A stretch of 21,468 nt of DNA, taken from IMG/VR virus record IMGVR_UViG_3300014325_000049, positions 1-21,468 of that record; one strand, given 5' to 3'. A program made the position numbers and the translations under genes. Positions 1,265 through 15,699 of this stretch are shown here, piece by piece (positions within the stretch are counted from its first letter, which is position 1; each line of letters opens with the position of its first letter). The notes beneath the pieces are model-generated. The model saw only the letters and a program-made list of their open reading frames with translations. It was not told where the DNA came from and ran no database searches. The stretch is from a virus.

Positions 1265-1442
1265 CGGTCGCCCCTACCCACACAGAGCGGTGAACGAGTT
1301 CGTCGTTCTCCCAGAACTCGATCCAGTGAGTTTTCTGGCCGTTGGTCTCATCTACCCAGCCTTCACGACGTTCGAGCATGGCCGGATCTTTGATGCCACG
1401 GGTCGTATGCAGTTGTCCGTTCACCAGCCAGTGTTCTCTCAT
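1254..1442 (-). CDS. Small hypothetical protein (62 aa)
   Basis: This is a 62-residue acidic protein rich in W and E (MREHWLVNGQLHTT; THWIEFWENDELVHRSVW). It overlaps the upstream gp10-type gene by ATGA and the downstream 142-aa gene by 11 nt, so it is embedded in a coupled late operon. It looks like a small two- or three-stranded beta protein. I do not recognise the family. Being locked between two virion genes makes an accessory tail or assembly role possible, but nothing in the sequence shows this. Confidence 0.7.
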   Translation of the reverse strand: MREHWLVNGQLHTTRGIKDPAMLERREGWVDETNGQKTHWIEFWENDELVHRSVWVGATDGE

Positions 1443-3385
1443 TTTGCTGCTCGTTTCAGATTCGCACCGACAATGTCGCGCTTGACCGGATCAATCACTC
1501 GCACTTCCATCACTCCATCACGGGTGAAAGCCAACTTGCGCCAGATCACCCGATTTAAGTAATTGCCGACTTTCCCCAAACTGCGGGCGAACATCTGACT
1601 CCAGGTCTGGCCTCCATCCCGAGAAGTCTTCAGGTACACCTGTGGGTCGTATCCCGTACCGCTCTGATTACCCACGCCGGGGGCGAATTCGATCTGCAGC
1701 GAGCCCATATAGACCCGCTCGCGGGCTCCGCCGTCCCAGATGTGCGGGGTGCGACGCAAAGCCAGTAATGGCCAACCCGCATCCGTGAAGGCATTGCGCG
1801 TCATCTGATAGACCGATCCATTTTGATAGTCCCCCACCAATCTTTGATTCTGGAAGTTCAGGAAGCAGTTGGATCGATGGCGGTGGAAGCTGTCGGTATA
1901 CGGATCGTAGGATGCGCGTTTGTGCCACATCTCCGTGGACCCATCGAAACACCATGTCTTATCCGCACTAGGGAAGGTCAGGACATAGAATTCGTGTCCA
2001 TCTTCCTGATACGTGTAACCGATCGCATCGGCGACATACGCATAGGTCGCGATCTCATCCGAGACCGCAGGCGTGCTCACCACTTGAGCTTCAAACCCCC
2101 GGGTGCGGATGACGACATTTTCACCGCGATCCGAGCGGCCAAACCAGATCAATCCGTCCTGTCCCGCATCATTGAACCGCGTCAAGGAATGCGGAGCCGA
2201 ACAGCCCACCTGGAGCATGGTGGAAACCAGGCGCTGGAAGCCAAAGAACTGACCCCCGGCGTCGTACCAGATCTCCGTATGCTTCTCGCAGATCAACCAC
2301 AGCTCTTCCTTGTTCTCCATCAAGGTCACGAGCTTGTCAGTCGCGGCATCGGCGAGTGCAAAGAAGCTCGCATCAAACTCGATGCTGTAGGTGGACTTCG
2401 GCGTATAGAACACCTGAGTCCCCGGCTGATTGAAGATCCACCAGCCATCGATGAACGCCACCTTGTCCGCCCCTAGGAAAGCAGGGTCGCTGATCTGAGT
2501 GAACTTCTGCGTTTTGATGTTGTAGAGGTACCCATTCGGACCATCCACAATCACCACATACCCACCCGCACCGTTGTCTCGAATCCCCACCGGTCCGCTC
2601 GAGGTGGAGAGCGTACCCACCCGCTTCATGGCAAACGTCGCTGGCGTATACGCACTGGCGGCCGTCTTCACGGTCATGAGGAATGCGCCGTTCCCAAAGA
2701 CCCAGATCGCCTGCTGGCCTCCCGGCAGTTCCCACGCCCCACGTCCGGGCAGGTTCGTGACCGTCGAGGGCGGTGGCCACGGGGTGGGCGGAGGCGGGAC
2801 CGGAGGCGGTGGCAGCGGCGCTTCGGTCGGTAGCAGCGTGACAAACCACGAGGGTTTGTTCGGCCAATCAAATACCCTCGCCTCTTCAAAGACGGCCGGT
2901 TTGCGCCGTAGGGTCGTCAGATCTCCTGCCGGCGGAGGATTCGGTCGCAGCGAGGTCTGAAGCACCGATCGCTGCGGCTGAATGAACTCCTGTGGCGGAT
3001 CAACATGAGTGGATCGCTTGACCCGCTGGATATCTTGAGCGGGGTTATACGGTACGTTCTGAGTCAGAACGACCGGCAGCGATCCTTTTTGCGCCTGAAT
3101 GAATGGAGGTTCCGGCTCTCCACTGCCGATGAAGTTATCCCATCCCGAAACAATATCCGTGGGATAGGCATTCAGGATCAGCCGGGACTTGAAACTCCAC
3201 GGCTGAATGAAGGTTTGCGATTCATAAACATCCGTGTTGGGCTTGTAATGAACAAAGTTCGGTGTGGCGGCCGCAGCCGTGCCCAATAAAATGAGCCAGA
3301 CATTGCGGCCCCGGGAAGTGACGATCCGAGTACCGTTATCCACCACCTCAGCCTTGGGTGGTTGATTGATAGTCGGATCGGCCAC
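1439..3385 (-). CDS. gp10-type packaged-DNA stabilisation (tail hub) protein, C-terminal bulk fused to a repeat/proline-rich N-terminal domain
   Basis: This is a 648-residue protein with two parts. From about residue 208 to the end it matches the P22 gp10 (Phage_stabilise) family, whose members cap the portal/gp4 ring and hold in packaged DNA. Diagnostic stretches are GTLSTSSGPVGIRDNG, FIDGWWIFNQPGT, ELWLICEKHTEIWYDAG, VSDEIATYAYVADAIGYTYQ, GHEFYVLTFPSADKTW and RLVGDYQNGSVYQM. The usual N-terminal 60 or so residues of gp10 are missing; they are encoded separately at 6489-6680. In their place residues 1-207 hold a hydrophobic patch (about 29-42), three FIQ-type repeats (FIQPWSF at 59, FIQAQKG at 95, FIQPQRS at 134), a DWPN motif (173) and a proline-rich linker (about 189-206). 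I do not recognise this N-terminal domain. The start is GTG, directly after the TAA of the upstream gene. The stop overlaps the next gene by ATGA. Confidence 0.88.
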   Translation of the reverse strand: MADPTINQPPKAEVVDNGTRIVTSRGRNVWLILLGTAAAATPNFVHYKPNTDVYESQTFIQPWSFKSRLILNAYPTDIVSGWDNFIGSGEPEPPFIQAQKGSLPVVLTQNVPYNPAQDIQRVKRSTHVDPPQEFIQPQRSVLQTSLRPNPPPAGDLTTLRRKPAVFEEARVFDWPNKPSWFVTLLPTEAPLPPPPVPPPPTPWPPPSTVTNLPGRGAWELPGGQQAIWVFGNGAFLMTVKTAASAYTPATFAMKRVGTLSTSSGPVGIRDNGAGGYVVIVDGPNGYLYNIKTQKFTQISDPAFLGADKVAFIDGWWIFNQPGTQVFYTPKSTYSIEFDASFFALADAATDKLVTLMENKEELWLICEKHTEIWYDAGGQFFGFQRLVSTMLQVGCSAPHSLTRFNDAGQDGLIWFGRSDRGENVVIRTRGFEAQVVSTPAVSDEIATYAYVADAIGYTYQEDGHEFYVLTFPSADKTWCFDGSTEMWHKRASYDPYTDSFHRHRSNCFLNFQNQRLVGDYQNGSVYQMTRNAFTDAGWPLLALRRTPHIWDGGARERVYMGSLQIEFAPGVGNQSGTGYDPQVYLKTSRDGGQTWSQMFARSLGKVGNYLNRVIWRKLAFTRDGVMEVRVIDPVKRDIVGANLKRAAK

Positions 3386-3853
3386 TTAGAACTCTTCGAT
3401 GGAGATCGAACCCGAGATCGTCGGTGTTCCCGGTGCGGTGAGGAAGTTCAACGCCCAGATCTGACCAGCCGCAATTTCCGGGATCAGAATGTCCTTGCCA
3501 TTCACGATATCCATCGGATTGGCACCGTTCCACTGCCAGTTATCCAGCACCACCGAGACGGCACCGGGAGTCGTATACCCGGAAATCGCCGTCGTGGCCG
3601 CGGAGGTCGTATTCTTGCGAATGATGGCCCGCGGCGTGATGGAAGTGGTGGTGCCACCGGAACCCGTAGCGGATGCAATGACCATCTGCACCTGCAAAAT
3701 CGCCTGCGTGGAACCGGTTTGGTTGCTCTGCAACTGAATGCGATGAATGCCAAACGGACTTCCTGCAGCGGCGGTCAACTGAAAAATGGTTGACGACACG
3801 TTGGTGAAGGCCGTAGGCGCCAAACTGACCAAATAGCCTAAACCCTGAGCCAT
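3386..3853 (-). CDS. Virion-associated hypothetical protein (155 aa)
   Basis: I place the start at ATG 3853 (MAQGLGYLVSLAP) rather than the in-frame ATG at 3880. The sequence GGAGTGATTGAT before 3853 gives a good ribosome binding site, whereas the upstream ATG has none. The 155-residue product is almost free of charged residues until its acidic tail (SISIEEF) and alternates polar and hydrophobic residues, so it is probably an all-beta virion protein. Residues near 40-60 (PFGIHRIQLQSNQTGST) and the FLTAPGTPTISGSI end look like jelly-roll strands. The stop TAA touches the GTG of the gp10-type gene. It is the last of three genes inserted between the two gp10 pieces. Family unknown. Confidence 0.75.
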   Translation of the reverse strand: MAQGLGYLVSLAPTAFTNVSSTIFQLTAAAGSPFGIHRIQLQSNQTGSTQAILQVQMVIASATGSGGTTTSITPRAIIRKNTTSAATTAISGYTTPGAVSVVLDNWQWNGANPMDIVNGKDILIPEIAAGQIWALNFLTAPGTPTISGSISIEEF

Positions 3854-3892
3854 ATCAATCACTCCAAGTAATTGGCCCAATGGGCCGGTTGA

Positions 3893-4606
3893 TTAAAACT
3901 GAACGATGGTTTCGGACACGAATGTCTGTTTGGGCCAGCTCAAGAGGGCCTGCGGGTCAGGCACTCCCGGTAACAGCGCGGCAATCACGGCATTGCGCGA
4001 GGCAGACGCATCACTCGAGATGGTCCAGGTACCTGCCGTGATGTTGGTGGCCGTGGTCTGAATCTTGTAATCCCAGACCATGCACATTCCGGCCGCTGAA
4101 TGCTGTTCGTCGATTTCCGCATCAAAGGGGCTCGGTACATTGAATCCAGAACAATTGGCCGGCTTACACCCCGTCACGACCACGAGACAACCAGGTTGCG
4201 TGATCGTGAGACTCGGATAGCCGAGACCCGTAGTGACCCCGAGTCCTGCCGTATTCGTGGCATGTACATTGCCGGTAATCGTGCTCGGACCCCCATCAAA
4301 GCAGCACATCTCGGCATACGCCTGACCACTATTGGTCGGGCGTGTCACCAACATGGTGCTGCCTTCGGACCCCGTCGCTACTTTCCAGAATAGGTAACTG
4401 CTGGCGTTCGTCGTGCGACTGACGATTAGCTGGAAATCCGTATCCGCCAGCGTCGGGGCTGCTTGTCCGGTCGGGCCTGCGTGATAGGCGCAGAATAGAA
4501 TCTTTCCCGCCGCAGTCCCACTGGGATAGCCAATGGAGCCCGAAGCAACCGCGTTGAACTCAAAAGGGGTCCCGACACTATTGAGACCGGTCCATGCACC
4601 GCTCAT
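3893..4606 (-). CDS. Virion/appendage hypothetical protein (237 aa)
   Basis: This is a 237-residue, G/T/S-rich protein with beta-strand-like alternation. It contains features common in phage and bacterial surface beta-sandwich proteins: GKILFCAYHAG, the pattern SSYLFWKVATGSEG, CLVVVTGCKP, ITAGTWTISSDASASRNAVIAALLPG. It has seven cysteines, several of them close together (CC, C-x(5)-C-x(4)-C), which is notable in a presumed virion protein. The ATG overlaps the stop of the FN3 protein by ATGA. The gene is the middle of the three that separate the gp10 fragments. The ending SRNAVIAALLP is reminiscent of small beta-sandwich domains that I recall next to tail fibre modules, but I cannot name a family with confidence. 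Confidence 0.75.
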   Translation of the reverse strand: MSGAWTGLNSVGTPFEFNAVASGSIGYPSGTAAGKILFCAYHAGPTGQAAPTLADTDFQLIVSRTTNASSYLFWKVATGSEGSTMLVTRPTNSGQAYAEMCCFDGGPSTITGNVHATNTAGLGVTTGLGYPSLTITQPGCLVVVTGCKPANCSGFNVPSPFDAEIDEQHSAAGMCMVWDYKIQTTATNITAGTWTISSDASASRNAVIAALLPGVPDPQALLSWPKQTFVSETIVQF

Positions 4607-6492
4607 TGCGGTAAATTGGTCGGATAAGAATTATTCGTCAGGGGATTGCTGGCGAACAACGGCATCGCCGTGTTCCAGTTTGCCCACGCCGCTGAGCCAG
4701 TTCGACCCGTGATGTGGCTGAAGAAACACACCGCCGCACCCCAACCGAGGTTCAATGCCAGCGCCAAGTCAGCGACATTCTGCGTGCGCACCTGATCGGC
4801 ACTACTATCCTGCACATCGATAATCGCGCGAGACTGCGGACGCCGGTCGAGGATTCCCGTCACCGGTGTACCGCCCACACTGAAGGGCGTGCCGGTGAAG
4901 CAGTTGAATCCCCACTGCATGCCGTTGTACGGCGGCGAAGAAGTGATCACCCCGTACATGGACTCACTGGCGACGGTTTGCGAGATGCTGACTTGGTAGG
5001 TACCGACCCCTCCTGTCGTGCCGCTCAACTGGCTCACGATACGTTGGCCGGCCGCGAGATTGCCGGTGAGGTCATCGATCCCTCGATTGGTATAGATCGT
5101 GCCGTTAGAGACCGCTGTGACCGTGAGCGTCGTTCCAGAAATGCTGCCGGTGAAAATGCCGCCGATATATCGCGCCCCGTAAGTATCGGCTGTTCCCTGC
5201 AGTACCCCTCGGGCGACCATGTCCTCACAGACGGTCTCACTTTGCTGGCCGTCAAACTGGAAAGTGGCTTGGGCGTAGGTGGGGGTTTGAGTGAATGCGG
5301 TTCGCATGGCCTGATAGACCGACATCCAAGCCGCTCTGAACTGACCACTCAATCCCGTCGAGGACAGCGGAATCATGTTGGAGTCTTCGCACAGTCCTAT
5401 GAAAGCAAACTGAGGGTTCCCATCATACCGACGGGCCATCGCTTGAATGCTATTGATGACCTGAGCGCGGACATTGGCATTGGTGATATTGGCGCAATAG
5501 CCGCCAGTCTGTTGCTCGTAATAGCCGCCCTGTCCGGTCGGATCGCCGCTCGGGAACCCCGGTCCGTAGGTGCCTGTATTGTTCAACATGTAGGAAGGTA
5601 TAGTGTCGGTCGAACCATTGGGCCGGGCGGGTGTTGAGTTATTGAACACGCCAAGGTTGTATTGAATGGCAAACTTCCTAGGTGCGATTCTAGCCATAGC
5701 CGCATCGATATCGGCCCAGTGGTAGTTGGCATCGACTCCATTTGCATTGTTGGGGTCGATGTGAGCAAACGTTACGAACATCCGATAACCGATAGTAGCC
5801 GCCGAGGATGTATCCAAATCGCTATATTCTGGCGTGAAATGCACATCATTCCACGCACGACCATTGGTCAATACTGCATTGGATCCCATCCACCAACCGG
5901 TATTACCGGTCCACTTCATCTGCGTTCCACTTTCAGCGGCCAACGTGGTCCCAAATGCATTAGCAGACGGAAGTCCGTTACCTGCATTGTTGGTTGCGAT
6001 GATGTTGTATTGATACGTCGTGGCTTGCGTCAGACCCGTATCATTGAAAGTCAGTCCCGTGACTGTCGTGATATTGATACCGTTTCGCTGGACGATGTAA
6101 TTGGTCGCTCGGGCCGTATTCCCCCAGGACAGATCGATTTCACTGGTCGATACCGGATTGGTGACGACGCCCATAACCTGATCCGGAGGCTGGAGCGCCG
6201 CTTGCGTCGTCGCAAGTACGGGCGTGGATTGTTGACCCTCCCCGAAGGTATTAATGGCCGCGACCGTGAAACTGTACTGAGTCTGTGGTGCCAGCTGAGT
6301 GAACTGCGCATTGGTTACCGGAAGGGTCACCACCGGATTACCGAAGATGCGCACGGTATAGTTCTGCGCCCCTGCGATCGCCGTCCAAGTCAGATCAATT
6401 TCCGTCGAGCTGATGACGGTGGCCACGACGCCTTGAACCGCCGCGGGCGTTTGCGGAACCGTTCCCAACGGCCGTATGAAGCTGACCTTCAC
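4603..6492 (-). CDS. FN3-repeat protein with hydrolase-like body (tail appendage candidate)
   Basis: This is a 629-residue protein starting at GTG 6492, which overlaps the stop of the gp10 N-terminal fragment (GTGA). Two fibronectin type III domains are visible at about 15-95 and 103-184 (IDLTWTAIAGAQNYTV...YSFTVAAINTFGEG; IDLSWGNTARATNYIV...YQYNIIATNNAGNG). The body from about 190 has TIM-barrel glycosidase-like signals: HWADIDAAMARIAPRKFAIQ (259-278) and a strand FAFIGLCEDSN with acidic residues at 369-370, followed by ATFQFDG (409-415). A beta domain of about 70 residues (447-516; GSISGTTLTVTA to GTYQVSISQTVASES) seems inserted in the body. That motif is common in phage structural proteins. 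A role in binding or degrading a surface polysaccharide is inferred; catalysis is not shown. It interrupts the gp10 locus. Confidence 0.8.
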   Translation of the reverse strand: MKVSFIRPLGTVPQTPAAVQGVVATVISSTEIDLTWTAIAGAQNYTVRIFGNPVVTLPVTNAQFTQLAPQTQYSFTVAAINTFGEGQQSTPVLATTQAALQPPDQVMGVVTNPVSTSEIDLSWGNTARATNYIVQRNGINITTVTGLTFNDTGLTQATTYQYNIIATNNAGNGLPSANAFGTTLAAESGTQMKWTGNTGWWMGSNAVLTNGRAWNDVHFTPEYSDLDTSSAATIGYRMFVTFAHIDPNNANGVDANYHWADIDAAMARIAPRKFAIQYNLGVFNNSTPARPNGSTDTIPSYMLNNTGTYGPGFPSGDPTGQGGYYEQQTGGYCANITNANVRAQVINSIQAMARRYDGNPQFAFIGLCEDSNMIPLSSTGLSGQFRAAWMSVYQAMRTAFTQTPTYAQATFQFDGQQSETVCEDMVARGVLQGTADTYGARYIGGIFTGSISGTTLTVTAVSNGTIYTNRGIDDLTGNLAAGQRIVSQLSGTTGGVGTYQVSISQTVASESMYGVITSSPPYNGMQWGFNCFTGTPFSVGGTPVTGILDRRPQSRAIIDVQDSSADQVRTQNVADLALALNLGWGAAVCFFSHITGRTGSAAWANWNTAMPLFASNPLTNNSYPTNLPQ

Positions 6493-6680
6493 AACCCTTG
6501 AACGCTCGCGACCTGAACTAGCCCGGGACAGCCCAAGAGAGCTACAACCGTTTTAGAACTCTTCATCTTGTCCACGGATACTTCCGGATACCAGTTGATC
6601 GTTTCCTGGCGGTCCTGATAGGGATCGGGAGCGGTATAGGACTCACCGACGAACCCCCAGTCACTGTTGGCTTGTGGCAT
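6489..6680 (-). CDS. Separate N-terminal fragment of the gp10-type stabilisation protein (63 aa)
   Basis: This 63-residue gene encodes the canonical start of gp10-type proteins: the SDWGFVGESYTA patch, DRQETINWYPEV and VVALLGCPGLVQVASV. In intact homologues this N-terminus (…NWYPE…LLGTPGL…) runs straight into the region that here begins at about residue 208 of the 1439-3385 product. Translation stops just after VASVQGL, near the point where homology resumes (VTNLPGRG) 3.7 kb away. The ATG shares one base with the stop of the tailspike-like gene (TAATG). The TGA is interleaved with the GTG of the next gene (GTGA). The precise couplings suggest the fragment is translated rather than a decaying remnant. 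It might complement the larger piece in trans, or it might be non-functional. Confidence 0.8.
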   Translation of the reverse strand: MPQANSDWGFVGESYTAPDPYQDRQETINWYPEVSVDKMKSSKTVVALLGCPGLVQVASVQGL

Positions 6681-8371
6681 TAGAACTGCACCTGTTTCGT
6701 CCCCGGTAGAGCGCCCATATCAATACCCATTTCATAGGCCGCCCAAGTCACCCCGCTCGCCGGGTAACCCGCATTCGTGATGATCAGATCCCCCGAGGTG
6801 CTCACGCTGAACGTTCCACCGCCATAGCCTGCGGTGTTGTTGACGTTCTGGGACCACAACTGCGAGGCATAGCCAGCAGCGCCATAGCCGTTGTGATTCA
6901 CCAGTAGCAGGTAACGGAAGTCATAGTTAGTCCCGGCCAACTGCAAATGAACCAAGCGGGTGCGTGTCTTTGCGGCAGATGTGATGGTATTAGCGCCCGT
7001 GGTAATCGTTCCCTTGAAGCCGGTCTGACTACCAGCATTCAATACAGTGCTGTCAGAAAAAATAACTCCCGCGGCCCCTCGAATAAACGTGCCGGCGGAT
7101 ACACTGTCGCCTGTGCCGGCCACGGGACCATCGAAATAGACGGTATTCGTGGCGCCCAGCGTCAAACTGCCGGAGTTCTGCTCGAAGGTTAGTTTCCCAA
7201 TGAATGAACAGGGCAGTGTGCTCGCATTGGCTATCAGGGTTGCAGTGCTCCCATTGGTCCAGAACTGAGCATCCAAAGCTGCGAGATAAGGCTTGCACCC
7301 AGATCCGATCGAAATAGCGGTTCCGCCGCTGGGAATATTGACCGTACAACGATTGTTGAGCCCGGTTCCGTTGAAAGAATTGGTGCCCGAGGTGACCTTA
7401 TATTGAATTGCGGTCAAACAACTGACTCGAAAGTCACAATCCTGGGCCTCAACATATTCGGTGAAGGTCGAGGCCGCTTCATTATGCGGCTGAATCCCAA
7501 CGAGGTTATCTTCAAACCCACAGCGGATGAACTTAAAGCCGCAGACTCCGGCGGGCATGATACCGATGCTGTTGGCATCGCCTTTAAAGGAGATACCGAC
7601 GTAAATACAACCCTGTTGTAAGCCGGAACCGCCGACAAACTTCAATCCAGTCGCAACCCCTGGATAGCTCCAGAAAGTACGCTTCTTTCCCACCCCATAA
7701 CAACTTGGTGCTGTCGCGGATTGAGCGCTGCTGCCGATCCCAAATACGGTACCCGTGATGAGATAAGTTCCGGCCAATTGACGAATATCAATGTCGCCTG
7801 CGCCGTGGGCAAAGGCACGACAGGCATTCATAGCGGCCGTGCAATCGGTTGTTCCATCTGATTTCGCGCCAAACCATTCGTCATAACAGAACTGATTCAA
7901 TGGTGTGCCTGTGATTGAACCTCCGGCTGACAAATCGAATATCTGCCACGCCCCTGCATTGATCGCGCCATTAATGGTGACGGTTCCAGTGGGCTTGATC
8001 AGGCCGCCCCAGAAGGTGAGTTGTATATTCGACGGAATAGTGAGCGAGCTGATTGCAACCGGACCGCTGATCACGAGATTCGTCGCTGTCGTTCCGATCT
8101 TTGACAACAAAGTGGTGAAAGCCGCGGTGGCGTCGGTCACCCCATCTTGAGGGACTCCAGCCGCGGCCAAGGAGGCCGTATTGGCATAGGGCACCCACGC
8201 AACACCATTGCTATAAACGGGCCCTAAATCGGTCGTATAAGCGTCTGTACCAACTTGATACTGGGCTACCGATGGCAGATCGGTCGAAACCGGCGCAATA
8301 CCCGTATTTTGCAAGGTAATGCCCATTTCAGACTGCAAGGGAGATCGCGCAGAAGACGCCGGAGCCGCCAT
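6680..8371 (-). CDS. Tailspike / tail-fibre-like protein with pectate-lyase-type beta-helix
   Basis: This is a 563-residue protein. The N-terminal 60 residues (ending in PVYSNGVAWVPY) resemble a short virion-attachment segment. It then has the entry motif of pectate-lyase-superfamily beta-helices, AAGVPQDGVTDATAAFTTLL (70-89), and a second copy of the same type, DEWFGAKSDGTTDCTAAM (164-181). The central part (about 190-430) has the short repeating G/N/F pattern of a right-handed beta-helix (KFIRCGFEDNLVGIQ, EAQDCDFRVSCLTAI). The C-terminus is G/Y-rich and may be a trimerisation or receptor-facing domain. The start has a strong AGGAGG upstream and overlaps the gp4 stop (TAATG). The position right after gp4 supports a virion role, most likely receptor binding or polysaccharide cleavage (inferred). 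Confidence 0.82.
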   Translation of the reverse strand: MAAPASSARSPLQSEMGITLQNTGIAPVSTDLPSVAQYQVGTDAYTTDLGPVYSNGVAWVPYANTASLAAAGVPQDGVTDATAAFTTLLSKIGTTATNLVISGPVAISSLTIPSNIQLTFWGGLIKPTGTVTINGAINAGAWQIFDLSAGGSITGTPLNQFCYDEWFGAKSDGTTDCTAAMNACRAFAHGAGDIDIRQLAGTYLITGTVFGIGSSAQSATAPSCYGVGKKRTFWSYPGVATGLKFVGGSGLQQGCIYVGISFKGDANSIGIMPAGVCGFKFIRCGFEDNLVGIQPHNEAASTFTEYVEAQDCDFRVSCLTAIQYKVTSGTNSFNGTGLNNRCTVNIPSGGTAISIGSGCKPYLAALDAQFWTNGSTATLIANASTLPCSFIGKLTFEQNSGSLTLGATNTVYFDGPVAGTGDSVSAGTFIRGAAGVIFSDSTVLNAGSQTGFKGTITTGANTITSAAKTRTRLVHLQLAGTNYDFRYLLLVNHNGYGAAGYASQLWSQNVNNTAGYGGGTFSVSTSGDLIITNAGYPASGVTWAAYEMGIDMGALPGTKQVQF

Positions 8372-9129
8372 TATCGAAATCCTCCTGTCAGAATCCAGCT
8401 CGCATCGGTACGATTGCCTTGCGGTAAACGCTCATCGATCAAGCTGACGCGGGCTGGTACTTGATTCAGAGACTTCACCATGGCAATCGCTTCATTGCCG
8501 TTCACTTCAATTTCTTTGGATAGCGGGAATCCGTATTCGGCGCAGAGTTCCTTCGCCAATGCCCATTTCAATGCCCTGTTGTAACCGCGCGGCAGATTCA
8601 CCACCTGCGTGAGTGTCAGAAACTGAGTGAAGATCTGATCCGTGAAGAGATGCAGTTCCGCTCCATCCGAAGGGGCAGGATAGAAATTGAGCAAGCCCAA
8701 GGGGAACGTTGGGTTGTACCACAGGCCCAAAGGCCATGGGGCCGGCTGATTCTTCAGCAGGAATGAGTTGTATGTTTGCTCATCCCAATCGGTGTCCATG
8801 ATGAAATCGAGGCCCGAGAAACTAGTATAGGCACTCGTGATTCTCAACGGCCGGTCTACTCCGGCGCCTGTCACGGCATCAACTTGGAAATCACCTCCGG
8901 GACCAATCGTGTACTGATACTTGTTCGCCGTGAAGTTGAAGATGTTCTCGGGTGAGGCATAGACGTAGGCGTGATCTGTGGACCAGGAGTCCAAGAGATC
9001 ATTCAGCGCTTCCAAACAGTCATTCGCATCGGGAGCGGCAATCTGCTCCCCACTTTGATACGAGTTGATCCGCCGCAGCGCCGCCTTGATGATGGTCTGC
9101 GCCGTGGTCGTGAGGATCGTCGTTGCCAT
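8371..9129 (-). CDS. P22 gp4-type tail accessory factor (head completion)
   Basis: This is a 252-residue protein resembling the P22 gp4 family, which binds below the portal ring and starts tail assembly after packaging. Typical features are the N-terminal helix TIIKAALRRINSYQSGE, the segment DCLEALNDLLDSWSTD (41-56), then PENIFNFTANKYQYTIGPGG and PWPLGLWYNPTFPLGLLNFYP. A closing helix NLPRGYNRALKWALAKELC precedes the segment of conserved type (AEYGFPLSKEIEVNG). P22 gp4 itself is about 166 residues; longer members like this one occur in other podoviruses. It sits after the coat and small virion genes and before the tail genes, as gp4 does in P22. Its start overlaps the 118-aa gene (TGATG) with AAGGG upstream. 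Confidence 0.88.
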   Translation of the reverse strand: MATTILTTTAQTIIKAALRRINSYQSGEQIAAPDANDCLEALNDLLDSWSTDHAYVYASPENIFNFTANKYQYTIGPGGDFQVDAVTGAGVDRPLRITSAYTSFSGLDFIMDTDWDEQTYNSFLLKNQPAPWPLGLWYNPTFPLGLLNFYPAPSDGAELHLFTDQIFTQFLTLTQVVNLPRGYNRALKWALAKELCAEYGFPLSKEIEVNGNEAIAMVKSLNQVPARVSLIDERLPQGNRTDASWILTGGFR

Positions 9130-10301: not shown

Positions 10302-11669
10302 TTACCCCGCCAGCCGGGCGCCGAGCTGCGTGTACAGGCTGTCAAACCCGTAAAGCACGTCCATTCTCGTGGGCTCTGCGTCATTGTTGATGGTGTACTG
10401 AGTCGCAATACGGATCGCGAGACCCAGGTCTTCGTCATAGGCCCGTGAGGCCTCCACTGCGGTCCGTGGCAGCGGCAGATCCGCAAAGGCCATGGCGTAC
10501 GCATCCCGGAAGAACAAGAGGTTCTGCGGGCTCTGAGTGCCTGCGGCAGCACCGCCATTGACGGTAAGGGCTGGGGTACCAGTGAAGGCACTCGAAGCCA
10601 CACAGTTCTGGAACTGACCTCCAGTGATGGCGCATTCCTTGACTGTGAGATCGAGCAGTCCACCGGAAGTGGAGCTGTAAACACCCGTGGTGGCATTGAA
10701 GGTGCCGTTGGTGAGTGTCGCGGCTGCGAAACTCGGCCCACCTGGGGCTGCTGCACCGTTGATCGGCGCATAACCACCCGGAGGCACGACCACAAACTGC
10801 TTGGTGGTCTTGCCGTACTGGCCACGGTTCTGTGGGTTCACCGGGAAGAGTCCGGCGACCTGGATCACATCGCCCACCGTCACGCGCGGATTGGCGGATG
10901 AGGTCCAACCGGAAGTCTTCATGATGCCCTGTTGGGCCCAGCCGGTAGACAGCAGGAACGATCCGCCTGTGGCGGCCGTCACGCCCGCCAGCGTCGGCGA
11001 ACCGCCGCCCGCACCGGTTGTGAAGATCGGGATGTTCTCATCCTCAAACCAGTTGAAGCCGGCCGTCTTACGGGCCACTTCGCCGGTTTCGTAGATCTCC
11101 CCGATTCGGGCTTGGGGATTGAACAGGCCTTTCAGCGCATCGGCCATGGAGCTCATGGAGAGCGGATCGAGCACCGCATCGGGTGTCATGCCCTTCGGCG
11201 ATCCTTCAAAGCGCAAGATGGCGCGCGTGTCGCTGAAGGACTTGAACGCTGTAGGCGCTACTCCAAAAGTCCCCTGCGTAATGGCCGTGTTCTGAAATGC
11301 GAAGTACGCCCCGTCCGAATCCATGCGATTGGCGATGGCGGCAGTGGCGGGCTTGATGAAGCGCTCTTTGAACTCGGCGATGTCCAAGAGCATGTTCACG
11401 GTGTTGAACTGAATATCAACGTGGAATTGATACTTCAGGGATACCGGAACGTAGGTCTCGACACTGGGCTCGACATTCAGTGCGGGACCGAACGTGCCGA
11501 AGTAGCGAGGCGGTTTTCGGACGTTGACGGTGGCGCCGATGAGCGCGTCTTTGCGCGCGTATTCGTCGGAGTATTGACGGTTGAATTTATCCGTCAGGAC
11601 CAGCTGATTACTCAACACAGGCAAGGCCCGGTTGGTGATCATGCTGATCGTCAGCAATTGATTGGCCAA
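10302..11669 (-). CDS. P22 gp5-type major capsid (coat) protein
   Basis: This is a 455-residue protein of the P22 coat family with the HK97 fold. The start MANQLLTISMITNRALPVLSN, the NVRKPPRYFG segment (about 50-59) and the VETYVPVSLKYQFHVDIQF strand, with the following IKPATAAIANRMDSDG helix (106-121), are typical of this branch. P22 coat is 430 residues, so the length fits. Residues about 220-370, with many G, T and A, should contain the I-domain or insertion. It follows a scaffold gene, as in P22. The start codon is TTG with AGGAG 9 nt upstream; no ATG or GTG is available there in frame, which is unusual for the most abundant virion protein. Confidence 0.92.
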   Translation of the reverse strand: MANQLLTISMITNRALPVLSNQLVLTDKFNRQYSDEYARKDALIGATVNVRKPPRYFGTFGPALNVEPSVETYVPVSLKYQFHVDIQFNTVNMLLDIAEFKERFIKPATAAIANRMDSDGAYFAFQNTAITQGTFGVAPTAFKSFSDTRAILRFEGSPKGMTPDAVLDPLSMSSMADALKGLFNPQARIGEIYETGEVARKTAGFNWFEDENIPIFTTGAGGGSPTLAGVTAATGGSFLLSTGWAQQGIMKTSGWTSSANPRVTVGDVIQVAGLFPVNPQNRGQYGKTTKQFVVVPPGGYAPINGAAAPGGPSFAAATLTNGTFNATTGVYSSTSGGLLDLTVKECAITGGQFQNCVASSAFTGTPALTVNGGAAAGTQSPQNLLFFRDAYAMAFADLPLPRTAVEASRAYDEDLGLAIRIATQYTINNDAEPTRMDVLYGFDSLYTQLGARLAG

Positions 11670-13382: not shown

Positions 13383-13556
13383 TCAACCTGACCCATGGGC
13401 GCTCTCGTAAGCTTGCAGTTCGGCCCGGGCTTTCTTGACCGCATCCTGTTGGGATTTCAATTCCAAGTGTCGAGAGACATCCTTTCGGATCTCCAACATC
13501 TTGGCTTCTTCAGCGGCCACCTGGTTGCGCAATACCTGAAGCTCAGTGGGCGCCAT
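13383..13556 (-). CDS. Small coiled-coil protein (57 aa) overlapping the portal 3' end
   Basis: A 57-residue protein starts at ATG 13556 inside the last codons of the portal gene (14-nt overlap). It reads MAPTELQVLRNQVAAEEAKM, then helical sequence through LEIRKDVSRHLELKSQQ, and ends in a short GSG tail. The heptad-like spacing of L, V and M with many K, E, R and Q predicts a single amphipathic helix or coiled coil. The overlap makes coupled translation likely. There is no clear nearby ribosome binding site. Short helical peptides just after the portal gene occur in other podoviruses and may take part in assembly, but the role here is unknown. Confidence 0.6.
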   Translation of the reverse strand: MAPTELQVLRNQVAAEEAKMLEIRKDVSRHLELKSQQDAVKKARAELQAYESAHGSG

Positions 13557-15699
13557 TGGCCCGACTTTCGGCCTTCTCGGCCGCTTCGGCGGTCATCTTG
13601 GCGAGTTCCTTCTCATGTGTGCGGTCCTGGTTGGAGTCGATCAGCTTCGCCCCCGCGTTGATCTCGGCCACGTTGATGGCCTTGTCGTAACCCACTTCGT
13701 CCGAATGCTTCTTGACGAGTGCGTCCGTATGTTTGTTGCGCGTGTCCACTTCGGCCTTGACATGGGTCTTCTCGCGCTCGACTTGCATCCAGCCCTTCTC
13801 CACGCTGGTCTTGTACTTCAACTCCAACTGCGCTTCCTGGAGCGCCTGTTGAGTCTGCTGCAACTGCTGCTGCATGGCCGCCACAATGGCTTGGCCCTGC
13901 TTCGGCAGTTCCGAAATCGCCTTGTTCATGGCCTCGGGGTTCAAGGGAACCAAACGGTCTGCGAGATCCGAAGCCCCCGCAAAGTCCATGTTGCGCACGA
14001 TCAGATCGGCGCCCACTTTGGCGATCGGTTCGCCCAAGGGAGTCTTGAGCAAGTCGATCATGGCCTCGGCCCCTTCCTGGCGCTTGGTGTCATAACCGGG
14101 ACCGGTATCCATGACGATGTCGTATTCGCCCACGGTCAGATCGTTCTTGACTCCATCGGCGGTCTTCTCGTTGATCTTCACCAAGGCCGGCATGCCATCT
14201 TCACCGATGATGCGTTGCATGCGTTCGGTGGAGTAGATGAGCGGGAACCACTCGAGCATGATCCGGCCGCCAAAGGCGATGGAATGGGTCTGGTTGTCGT
14301 AGTACTGGAAATGCGTGATATCAGCGAGTTCGCGACGCTCCTGTAAGGCAACGCCTGAGATCACCTCGCCCTTGGCATCCTGTCCCGGTTCATGCGGTTG
14401 ACCCGCCATGGCCATGAGCGCGGTATAGGCACTTTGCATGGCTTCTGACATGCCCGCTTCCACGGGAGCCGGTTGCTGTTTGACCGGTAGCGGCAGCAAT
14501 TCATCATTTGGGCCCCGAACCGCTTTACCCACCAGCACCGAATAGCTCTTGCGGTTCGCATCAATCCATTCGTTGTGCCCTTCAATCACTCCTTCGTAGG
14601 CCACCCACTCCGCTTTGGGTGCGAGTGCCAGGCGTTCGGTCTTCATGGTCTCCCAGTAGTTGACCATGCGCGCCGGCTCCATCAGGTTCTCCACCATCCC
14701 GGAGAAACAGCGCTTGCCCCCAATACTCGAGGAATTGCCCTCGACAGCCACAATGGGGATGTGTTTGATGTGCTCGGGCGGATACTCCCGCCTGTCTACG
14801 ACCTTGTTGCCATTCAGCTTGAACCACTGCACTTCGCGGTAGCTGCTCTGGCGTTCGACCACGGAGCCATCGCGTTCCACGTGAAACCCATGCTTTTCGG
14901 GCTCTTTCAACGCTTGTTTGAGAACACCCGGAGCGAAATCGCGCTCGAAACGGGTCGTCCCGTCCTTCATCTTGTAGAGCTTTTCGGGCTTGGTGACGAT
15001 CCGGTAATACTCAGCCAGGCGAATGCTGTCCGAGCTCTCCCAGTTCAGATCATCCCCCAAAGAACCCGGCACCCAATCGACGATGGGTTCGCCGGGGTTC
15101 TCGAGCTTGTACTCCTTTCGGGTCTGCTTGCGCGTGATGAGATAGCGCATGGAATCAGACCCATCCGGTAACACGCTGTTAGGGTCGCGATAGACCGTGT
15201 AGGTGTTCAGGATCGGGACGATCCGCAGCTCCTGGTCCATGCTGCGTTCGTCCACCCACTCCGGGATGATCCGAAAATAGCCCCAGCCAATGGTCAGGGC
15301 GGAAGAAACGGCCGCGTCATAGGCAATACTGGCCTGGGAGCGGTTCTCAACGTGTCTGGTGAGTCCGTTGATCAGGTCCGCCTTATCCACTGTGGCCTGC
15401 TCCCCCACGGGGTGGCACTTGATCCGCGGTCGCTGCTGCTTGATGGCATTCTCGACCCGCGTCACAAACATATCGCAGTGGTTGATGGTCAAAGACAACC
15501 GCCCATCGACCTCACGCTCTTTGTAGAGCGTCTGCGGCCACTGCTCGGGCTTACCCCCTTTACCACGGAAGCGTTCGGCTTCTAGCCCGCGTTTGCGATT
15601 GTCGCTCTCGAAGTCCTCACACAGGCGCAGGAAGTCCCGAGCTTCCTCGTAGATCTCCTTGTCTGTTTGGGCGTATCGATCGCGCTGATCTTCCTTCAT
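13543..15699 (-). CDS. P22-type portal protein
   Basis: This is a 718-residue protein, very close in length to P22 gp1 (725). It belongs to the P22-type portal family: the N-terminal helix DKEIYEEARDFLRLCEDFES, then LTINHCDMFVTRVENAIKQQRPRIK (split here to MFVTRVENAIKQQRPRIK), GWGYFRIIPEWVDE, LNTYTVYRDPNSVLPDGSD, GMVENLMEPARMVNYWETMK and SGVALQERRELADITHFQYY. About 100 C-terminal residues (from QLQQTQQALQEAQLELKYK) are strongly helical and correspond to the barrel region of P22 portals. It follows the large terminase gene as in P22. No good ribosome binding site precedes ATG 15699. The 139-nt gap before it (15700-15838) contains no supported gene; I see only weak AT-rich promoter-like matches there. 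Confidence 0.93.
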   Translation of the reverse strand: MKEDQRDRYAQTDKEIYEEARDFLRLCEDFESDNRKRGLEAERFRGKGGKPEQWPQTLYKEREVDGRLSLTINHCDMFVTRVENAIKQQRPRIKCHPVGEQATVDKADLINGLTRHVENRSQASIAYDAAVSSALTIGWGYFRIIPEWVDERSMDQELRIVPILNTYTVYRDPNSVLPDGSDSMRYLITRKQTRKEYKLENPGEPIVDWVPGSLGDDLNWESSDSIRLAEYYRIVTKPEKLYKMKDGTTRFERDFAPGVLKQALKEPEKHGFHVERDGSVVERQSSYREVQWFKLNGNKVVDRREYPPEHIKHIPIVAVEGNSSSIGGKRCFSGMVENLMEPARMVNYWETMKTERLALAPKAEWVAYEGVIEGHNEWIDANRKSYSVLVGKAVRGPNDELLPLPVKQQPAPVEAGMSEAMQSAYTALMAMAGQPHEPGQDAKGEVISGVALQERRELADITHFQYYDNQTHSIAFGGRIMLEWFPLIYSTERMQRIIGEDGMPALVKINEKTADGVKNDLTVGEYDIVMDTGPGYDTKRQEGAEAMIDLLKTPLGEPIAKVGADLIVRNMDFAGASDLADRLVPLNPEAMNKAISELPKQGQAIVAAMQQQLQQTQQALQEAQLELKYKTSVEKGWMQVEREKTHVKAEVDTRNKHTDALVKKHSDEVGYDKAINVAEINAGAKLIDSNQDRTHEKELAKMTAEAAEKAESRANGAH

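Follow-up and report, generated by a model that had tools for sequence, protein, structure and literature searches.

We report that the tail hub of the virus represented by IMG/VR record IMGVR_UViG_3300014325_000049 is encoded in two separated genes, and that its products probably make up a two-chain gp10-type hub, in which a strand carried by a short N-terminal chain (the N-piece) would be supplied non-covalently, in trans, to a longer chain carrying the rest of the protein (the C-piece). The window analyzed here is the whole 21,468-nucleotide stretch of this record. In P22-like phages the gp10-type hub forms the ring that retains the DNA and plugs the head at its bottom. A preliminary description of this DNA had offered three options, namely a two-chain hub, a protein built in trans, and a recent insertion tolerated by the phage. 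The first of these fits best: the split recurs in relatives, both pieces are under purifying selection, and the break falls in a flexible loop. All the split examples are metagenomic contigs known from their genes alone (the window contig being a fragment), and it is from sequence and structural models that we infer the presence of both chains in the virion, the non-covalent nature of their bond and the role of the strand.

The two pieces of the hub gene and their locus

On the minus strand of the window, the genes for a gp4-like protein, a spike-like protein, the 63-aa N-piece, three intervening proteins of 629, 237 and 155 aa, and the 648-aa C-piece follow one another in this order. The features of the locus are as follows:

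1439-2782, minus strand: core of the C-piece (residues ~202-648 of the 648-aa protein), beta-propeller and C-terminal domain (PHROG 578, AF2)
2783-3385, minus strand: N-terminal extension of the C-piece, ~201 aa, Pro-rich at its end
3386-3853, minus strand: 155-aa gene, directly upstream of the C-piece
3893-4606, minus strand: 237-aa gene between the pieces, with the C-terminal motif KQTFVSETIVQ, which its counterparts in relatives share
4603-6492, minus strand: 629-aa gene between the pieces (Pfam fn3, E 5e-16)
6489-6680, minus strand: N-piece of the gp10-type hub, 63 aa, N-terminal arm and probable closing propeller strand
6680-8371, minus strand: 563-aa tail-spike-like gene, inserted between the gp4-like gene and the N-piece
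8371-9129, minus strand: 252-aa gp4-like head-tail adaptor (weak PHROG 637 (Ad3) match; adjoins gp10 in unsplit relatives)
10302-11669, minus strand: P22-type coat protein (PF11651)
13543-15699, minus strand: P22-type portal protein (PF16510, E 4e-128)

The preliminary description had recognized the gp10 N-terminus in the gene at 6489-6680 and the remainder of gp10 in the protein coded at 1439-3385, and both assignments were borne out, with open reading frames at these coordinates and support from profile and tblastn searches. In the 648-aa protein the match to PHROG 578 ('head closure Hc3', the gp10 family) spans profile positions 85-468 of 486 (E 3e-88). The shorter protein, of 63 aa, covers positions 8-57 of the same profile in a match that is weak when taken alone (E 0.08); nevertheless, its homology to the gp10 N-terminus can be regarded as secure through its tblastn matches to the N-termini of intact gp10 genes (40-58% identity). 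Since the profile score of such a piece alone is not significant, annotation pipelines are likely to miss N-pieces, which are 57-63 aa in length.

The N-piece ends in ...GLVQVASVQGL and the C-piece picks up at ...PWPPPSTVTNLPGRG, while in the unsplit contig L005 the same two homologous stretches are bridged by a Gly/Pro-rich linker (...GLNQLVAAPGGGAPGFTSTTTMWPGPSSVTNLPVRG...). As the two stretches are joined by a linker in unsplit relatives, the break lies inside this linker. In the C-piece the homology sets in at residue ~202, slightly ahead of the residue ~208 given earlier, with the motif W-P-x-P-S-x-VTNLPxRG, which is common to the unsplit relatives. The other details of the junction stand as first described. 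The two ends meet with little missing or duplicated, only a Gly-rich linker of roughly 14 residues being absent. The breaks are tidy, with TAATG and GTGA overlaps flanking the N-piece: its ATG overlaps the preceding TAA, its stop overlaps the next GTG, and the GTG of the C-piece comes immediately behind the TAA of the gene before it. The pieces are separated by three genes (of 629, 237 and 164 codons, the last reduced to 155 by its conserved start), and the C-piece has gained a new N-terminal region ahead of its core in the form of the ~201-aa extension, which belongs to no known family.

The gp4-like gene is the normal direct upstream neighbor of gp10 in unsplit relatives. The N-piece follows it with one spike gene between them in the window and none in the split contig L003, and the portal and coat proteins are both P22-type. 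The profile match over most of the protein, the propeller with its C-terminal domain and the genome position are those of a gp10-type hub, which departs from the type in not being a single polypeptide, since it is coded by two genes in six contigs. A second or full-length gp10 elsewhere, a prospect raised in the preliminary description, was found neither in the 21.5-kb window contig, itself a fragment, nor in any of the five further contigs that carry the split, among them the 44.3-kb contig of the closest relative. The 629-aa product, with two fibronectin type III domains and a C-terminal domain, is probably a surface or receptor-binding protein, and the genes inserted between the pieces would be those of receptor-type tail proteins.

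The spike-like genes near the hub have a ~65-residue N-terminal domain in common and differ in their remainder (window 8170-8360; L003 3402-5123; L021 6094-6288). Their position relative to the gp4-like gene varies between relatives. This pattern has the appearance of typical spike swapping.

The split in related viruses

Relatives with the same split, which had been proposed as a check, do exist: a viral-contig scan of IMG/VR recovered two contigs with the same split and the same order of intervening genes, 3300024331_000116 (44.3 kb; L021) and 3300032893_000314, and more with other inserts. In these two, the N-piece is followed by a fibronectin type III gene, a 238-242-aa gene, a 155-aa gene and a C-piece with a related extension. 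In a fourth contig of this lineage (lineage 1), 3300047328_000104, an N-piece with the same GL* end precedes a 9.3-kb stretch of different genes, including one of the pectate-lyase family; the C-piece lies at the far end of this insert, is cut by the contig end and has an unrelated repeat extension. A distant lineage 2 comprises 3300047552_002153 and 3300049893_000558, with N-pieces of 57 and 59 aa and inserts in which kelch, PKD and depolymerase-type domains occur; their C-pieces (508 and 426 aa) start directly at the core, without an extension. A survey of reading frames across all loci gave 168 with a joined gp10 frame versus these six split contigs, a count that comes from a query-biased sample and is not a frequency. 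No further splits were found in additional viral-contig scans and no prophage relatives in two scans of genome contigs. Three contigs with only the core (L136, L178 and L193) were considered as splits and rejected, as they begin inside the gene.

The window being a metagenomic fragment, an assembly or sequencing artefact might be entertained as the source of the arrangement. We give this a negligible chance, given that the same arrangement recurs, at 64-87% identity, in distinct contigs that come from different metagenomes, and that the gene junctions are tidy in each of the split contigs compared.

To place the split contigs we used a tree of the core region, from which 3300047328_000104 was left out, having too little core for placement. 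Lineage 1, with its three testable contigs, forms one group (SH-aLRT 99) beside twelve unsplit relatives, and the two contigs of lineage 2 form another (97) elsewhere in the tree, again beside unsplit ones. The split state needs two changes on this tree, and forcing all five split contigs into one clade costs 226 log-likelihood units and is rejected (AU p = 3.7e-6). The phylogeny indicates that the split arose at least twice, independently.

The unsplit IMG/VR relatives (e.g., 3300050020_000005 and 3300021559_000022) and Xanthomonas phage PBR31 are 52-63% identical in the C-terminal part and have the same N-terminus, but code for the hub in a single frame. In them the break site corresponds to a Gly/Pro-rich loop of 4-33 residues or to a large in-frame insert of 256-334 residues. 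Of the 157 joined genes that are complete, all but those of three close relatives, which account for the large inserts, have a junction linker no longer than 33 residues. In one of the three (L015, 3300021559_000022) a LamG-type lectin domain makes up the insert. Because the junction of relatives takes up such large in-frame inserts, the split has fallen in a loop that was already permissive. A second insert site is seen near the gp10 C-terminus, with LamG domains at the same position in two distant phages (L022 10345-11058; L020 8485-9168).

Selection on the two pieces

Comparison of the window with L021 showed the N-piece to be the most conserved of the hub segments, with 87% identity versus 82% for the core and 43% for the extension. 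Its pN of 0.08 and pS of 0.80 (saturated) correspond to a pN/pS of 0.10 (bootstrap 0.04-0.18), against 0.10 for the gp4-like gene, 0.17 for the core, 0.20 for the 155-aa gene and 0.60 for the extension. In lineage 2 the ratio is 0.32 for the N-piece and 0.35 for the C-piece. None of the six contigs has a stop or frameshift in the N-piece, and every N-piece retains N-W-Y-x-E and PGL, which are residues of intact gp10. Given its low pN/pS with saturated synonymous sites, the N-piece is under purifying selection comparable to that on its structural neighbors, and this has persisted long after the split. The split itself is real, common to relatives and old. The idea of a recent insertion tolerated by the phage is ruled out, the synonymous sites being saturated while the N-piece protein is still 87% identical.

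The same data bear on whether the 63-aa frame might be what is left of a broken gene, with the C-piece and its extension constituting the whole hub. Such a reading could draw on the related extension present in three of the four contigs of lineage 1, and on the aligner having set extension residues ~68-73 near the empty strand position, albeit at a pLDDT of ~25. However, the leftover would be the best conserved segment of the hub and free of stops and frameshifts in six contigs, the lineage 2 C-pieces have no extension at all, and that of the fourth lineage 1 contig is unrelated. We therefore consider it very unlikely, and the decaying remnant envisaged in the preliminary description is contradicted by the pN/pS of the N-piece.

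A somewhat better, though still improbable, alternative is that the N-piece is selected but acts outside the hub, as a free assembly factor, an adaptor cap or a fiber anchor, with the C-piece hub closed in some other way. A free chain could acquire a new role, and it is by inference that the N-piece is placed in the hub. Nonetheless, its conserved residues are those of intact gp10, it keeps the gp4-gp10 position, and the split point is identical in the two lineages, all of which argue for a hub component.

Predicted structure and the position of the break

An AlphaFold (AF2) model of the unsplit hub of L008 (518 aa), computed from a 49-sequence alignment (pLDDT 89.3), matches P22 gp10 (8eap_D; Z 36.9, rmsd 2.5, 445 residues) and also the Sf6 gp8, Pan3 and Pam1 hubs. 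Unrelated propellers (e.g., RACK1-type chains) align to this model from residue ~58-62 to ~402. Two of its strands, 55-60 and 63-69, fall in the part that corresponds to the N-piece, while those from the break to residue 400 form blades of about four, the last with three clear strands (375-381, 384-389 and 394-399), in a grouping that is our own, based on strand order and alignment ranges rather than on coordinates. From these two strands and the three of the last blade, the model suggests that the N-piece probably carries the strand closing the last blade of the propeller. According to a study of podovirus hubs, gp10 (tubeB) has a section that is a beta-propeller, the conserved part of which lines the tail tube; that study counts six domains (PMC10386132), and we do not insist on a blade number.

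The model of the window C-piece has a confident propeller and aligns with P22 gp10 residues ~50-472 (8eap_D, Z 31.1), whereas its residues 1-210 have a pLDDT below 50. The C-terminal domain is predicted with less confidence here than for the unsplit relative, which may reflect the missing N-piece or a shallower alignment.

We propose that the N-piece (63 aa) would contribute the N-terminal arm and the beta-strand closing the last propeller blade, and the C-piece the remaining propeller, the C-terminal domain and the new N-terminal extension. The break lies in an insertion-tolerant loop, which would separate the closing strand from the strand that opens blade 1. The two chains would fold or dock without a covalent bond, with the N-piece strand joining the open last blade, and the usual hexameric ring would be built from 6+6 chains. 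In lineage 1 both chains might be co-translated, as the overlapping stop and start codons around the N-piece suggest coupled translation.

The structural core is complete across the junction, as would also be expected if intron splicing, a split intein or ribosome bypass joined the pieces into a normal single-chain hub. To reach such a product, whole genes that begin and end with start and stop codons of their own would need to be taken out. Each piece, too, has its own start and stop, and the spacer consists of open coding genes over 2.3 to 9 kb. Moreover, no Rfam intron family was found in the window (one sub-threshold, unrelated match) and no Pfam intein domain in the C-piece, and the lineage 1 C-piece retains its long extension. 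This makes joining highly improbable, and the option of a protein built in trans, taken as a covalent product, lacks support, the intron and intein searches being empty. Overall, a remnant, an assembly error, an intron and an intein are all disfavored relative to the two-chain hub.

Comparison with known hubs

The hub of P22 (gp10) and Sf6 (gp8) (PDB 8eap, 7sg7; PHROG 578) has the same fold over its full length as the model of the unsplit relative (Z 33.9-36.9), and its locus has the same neighbors as the window, namely the portal, the P22-type coat and the gp4-like adaptor. Whereas the solved hubs of P22, Sf6, Pam1 and Pan3 are each one chain, that of the window would be two chains from two genes, with three genes between. 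In the Velcro closure common among beta-propellers, a strand from one end of the chain completes the blade at the other (PMC4735018); in the window, the closing strand would be a separate polypeptide. If true, the locus would provide a natural example of a beta-propeller closed in trans. A podovirus hub in phage PhiGT1 is likewise thought to need two different chains (tubeA; PMC10386132), but this concerns the neighboring tubeA/gp4 ring (two rings or a heterodimer) and not a gp10 cut in two.

We found no split gp10 in named phages, the closest records having both halves adjacent or in one annotated gene; three suspicious named-phage records and PBR31 were rejected on inspection, showing no split. 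Nor did we find a report of a split tail hub or tail tubular protein B in a search mainly of the open-access literature. Within that literature and the named phages, a split gp10-type hub is previously undescribed. A possible exception is the circular record MW202796.1 (36423-38042), in which the annotated stabilization protein starts with no recognizable gp10 N-terminus and the 53-aa gene before the hub gene is not an N-piece; this is possibly another rearranged hub.

A natural split repeated at one loop marks where the hub ring can apparently open without losing function. The same loop is a candidate display site, since relatives insert lectin-like domains at it. More tentatively, and with a little more doubt than confidence, we suggest that the hub works as two non-covalent chains and that the split recurred because the loop before blade 1 is exposed and tolerant. 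Opening this loop would allow exchangeable receptor-type genes to be accommodated inside the hub locus and a new N-terminal domain to be attached to each subunit of the hub.

The C-piece extension and its neighbors

Besides the window, the C-piece extension is common only to the two closest split contigs. It has no confident fold, and it matched no Pfam family and nothing in named phages. The 155-aa gene next to it is 78-85% identical in the same two contigs and was found in no other contig in the IMG/VR scan. Within the extension, a hydrophobic stretch (window 3265-3300: VWLILLGTAAAA; LFLIVILGTAAAA in L021) resembles a signal or membrane segment.

Directly after the C-piece of L021, the protein coded at 14035-14850 starts with a copy of the first ~60 extension residues (42% to the window), followed by a PASTA domain. 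The start of the extension hence looks like an N-terminal module on two neighboring L021 tail proteins. Finally, a motif of the form (K/S/V)QTF(V/I) is present both at the C-terminus of the 237-aa protein and in the C-piece extension in three of three contigs (window 3893-3940 and ~3190-3230; L021; L003), and is possibly a common docking peptide.
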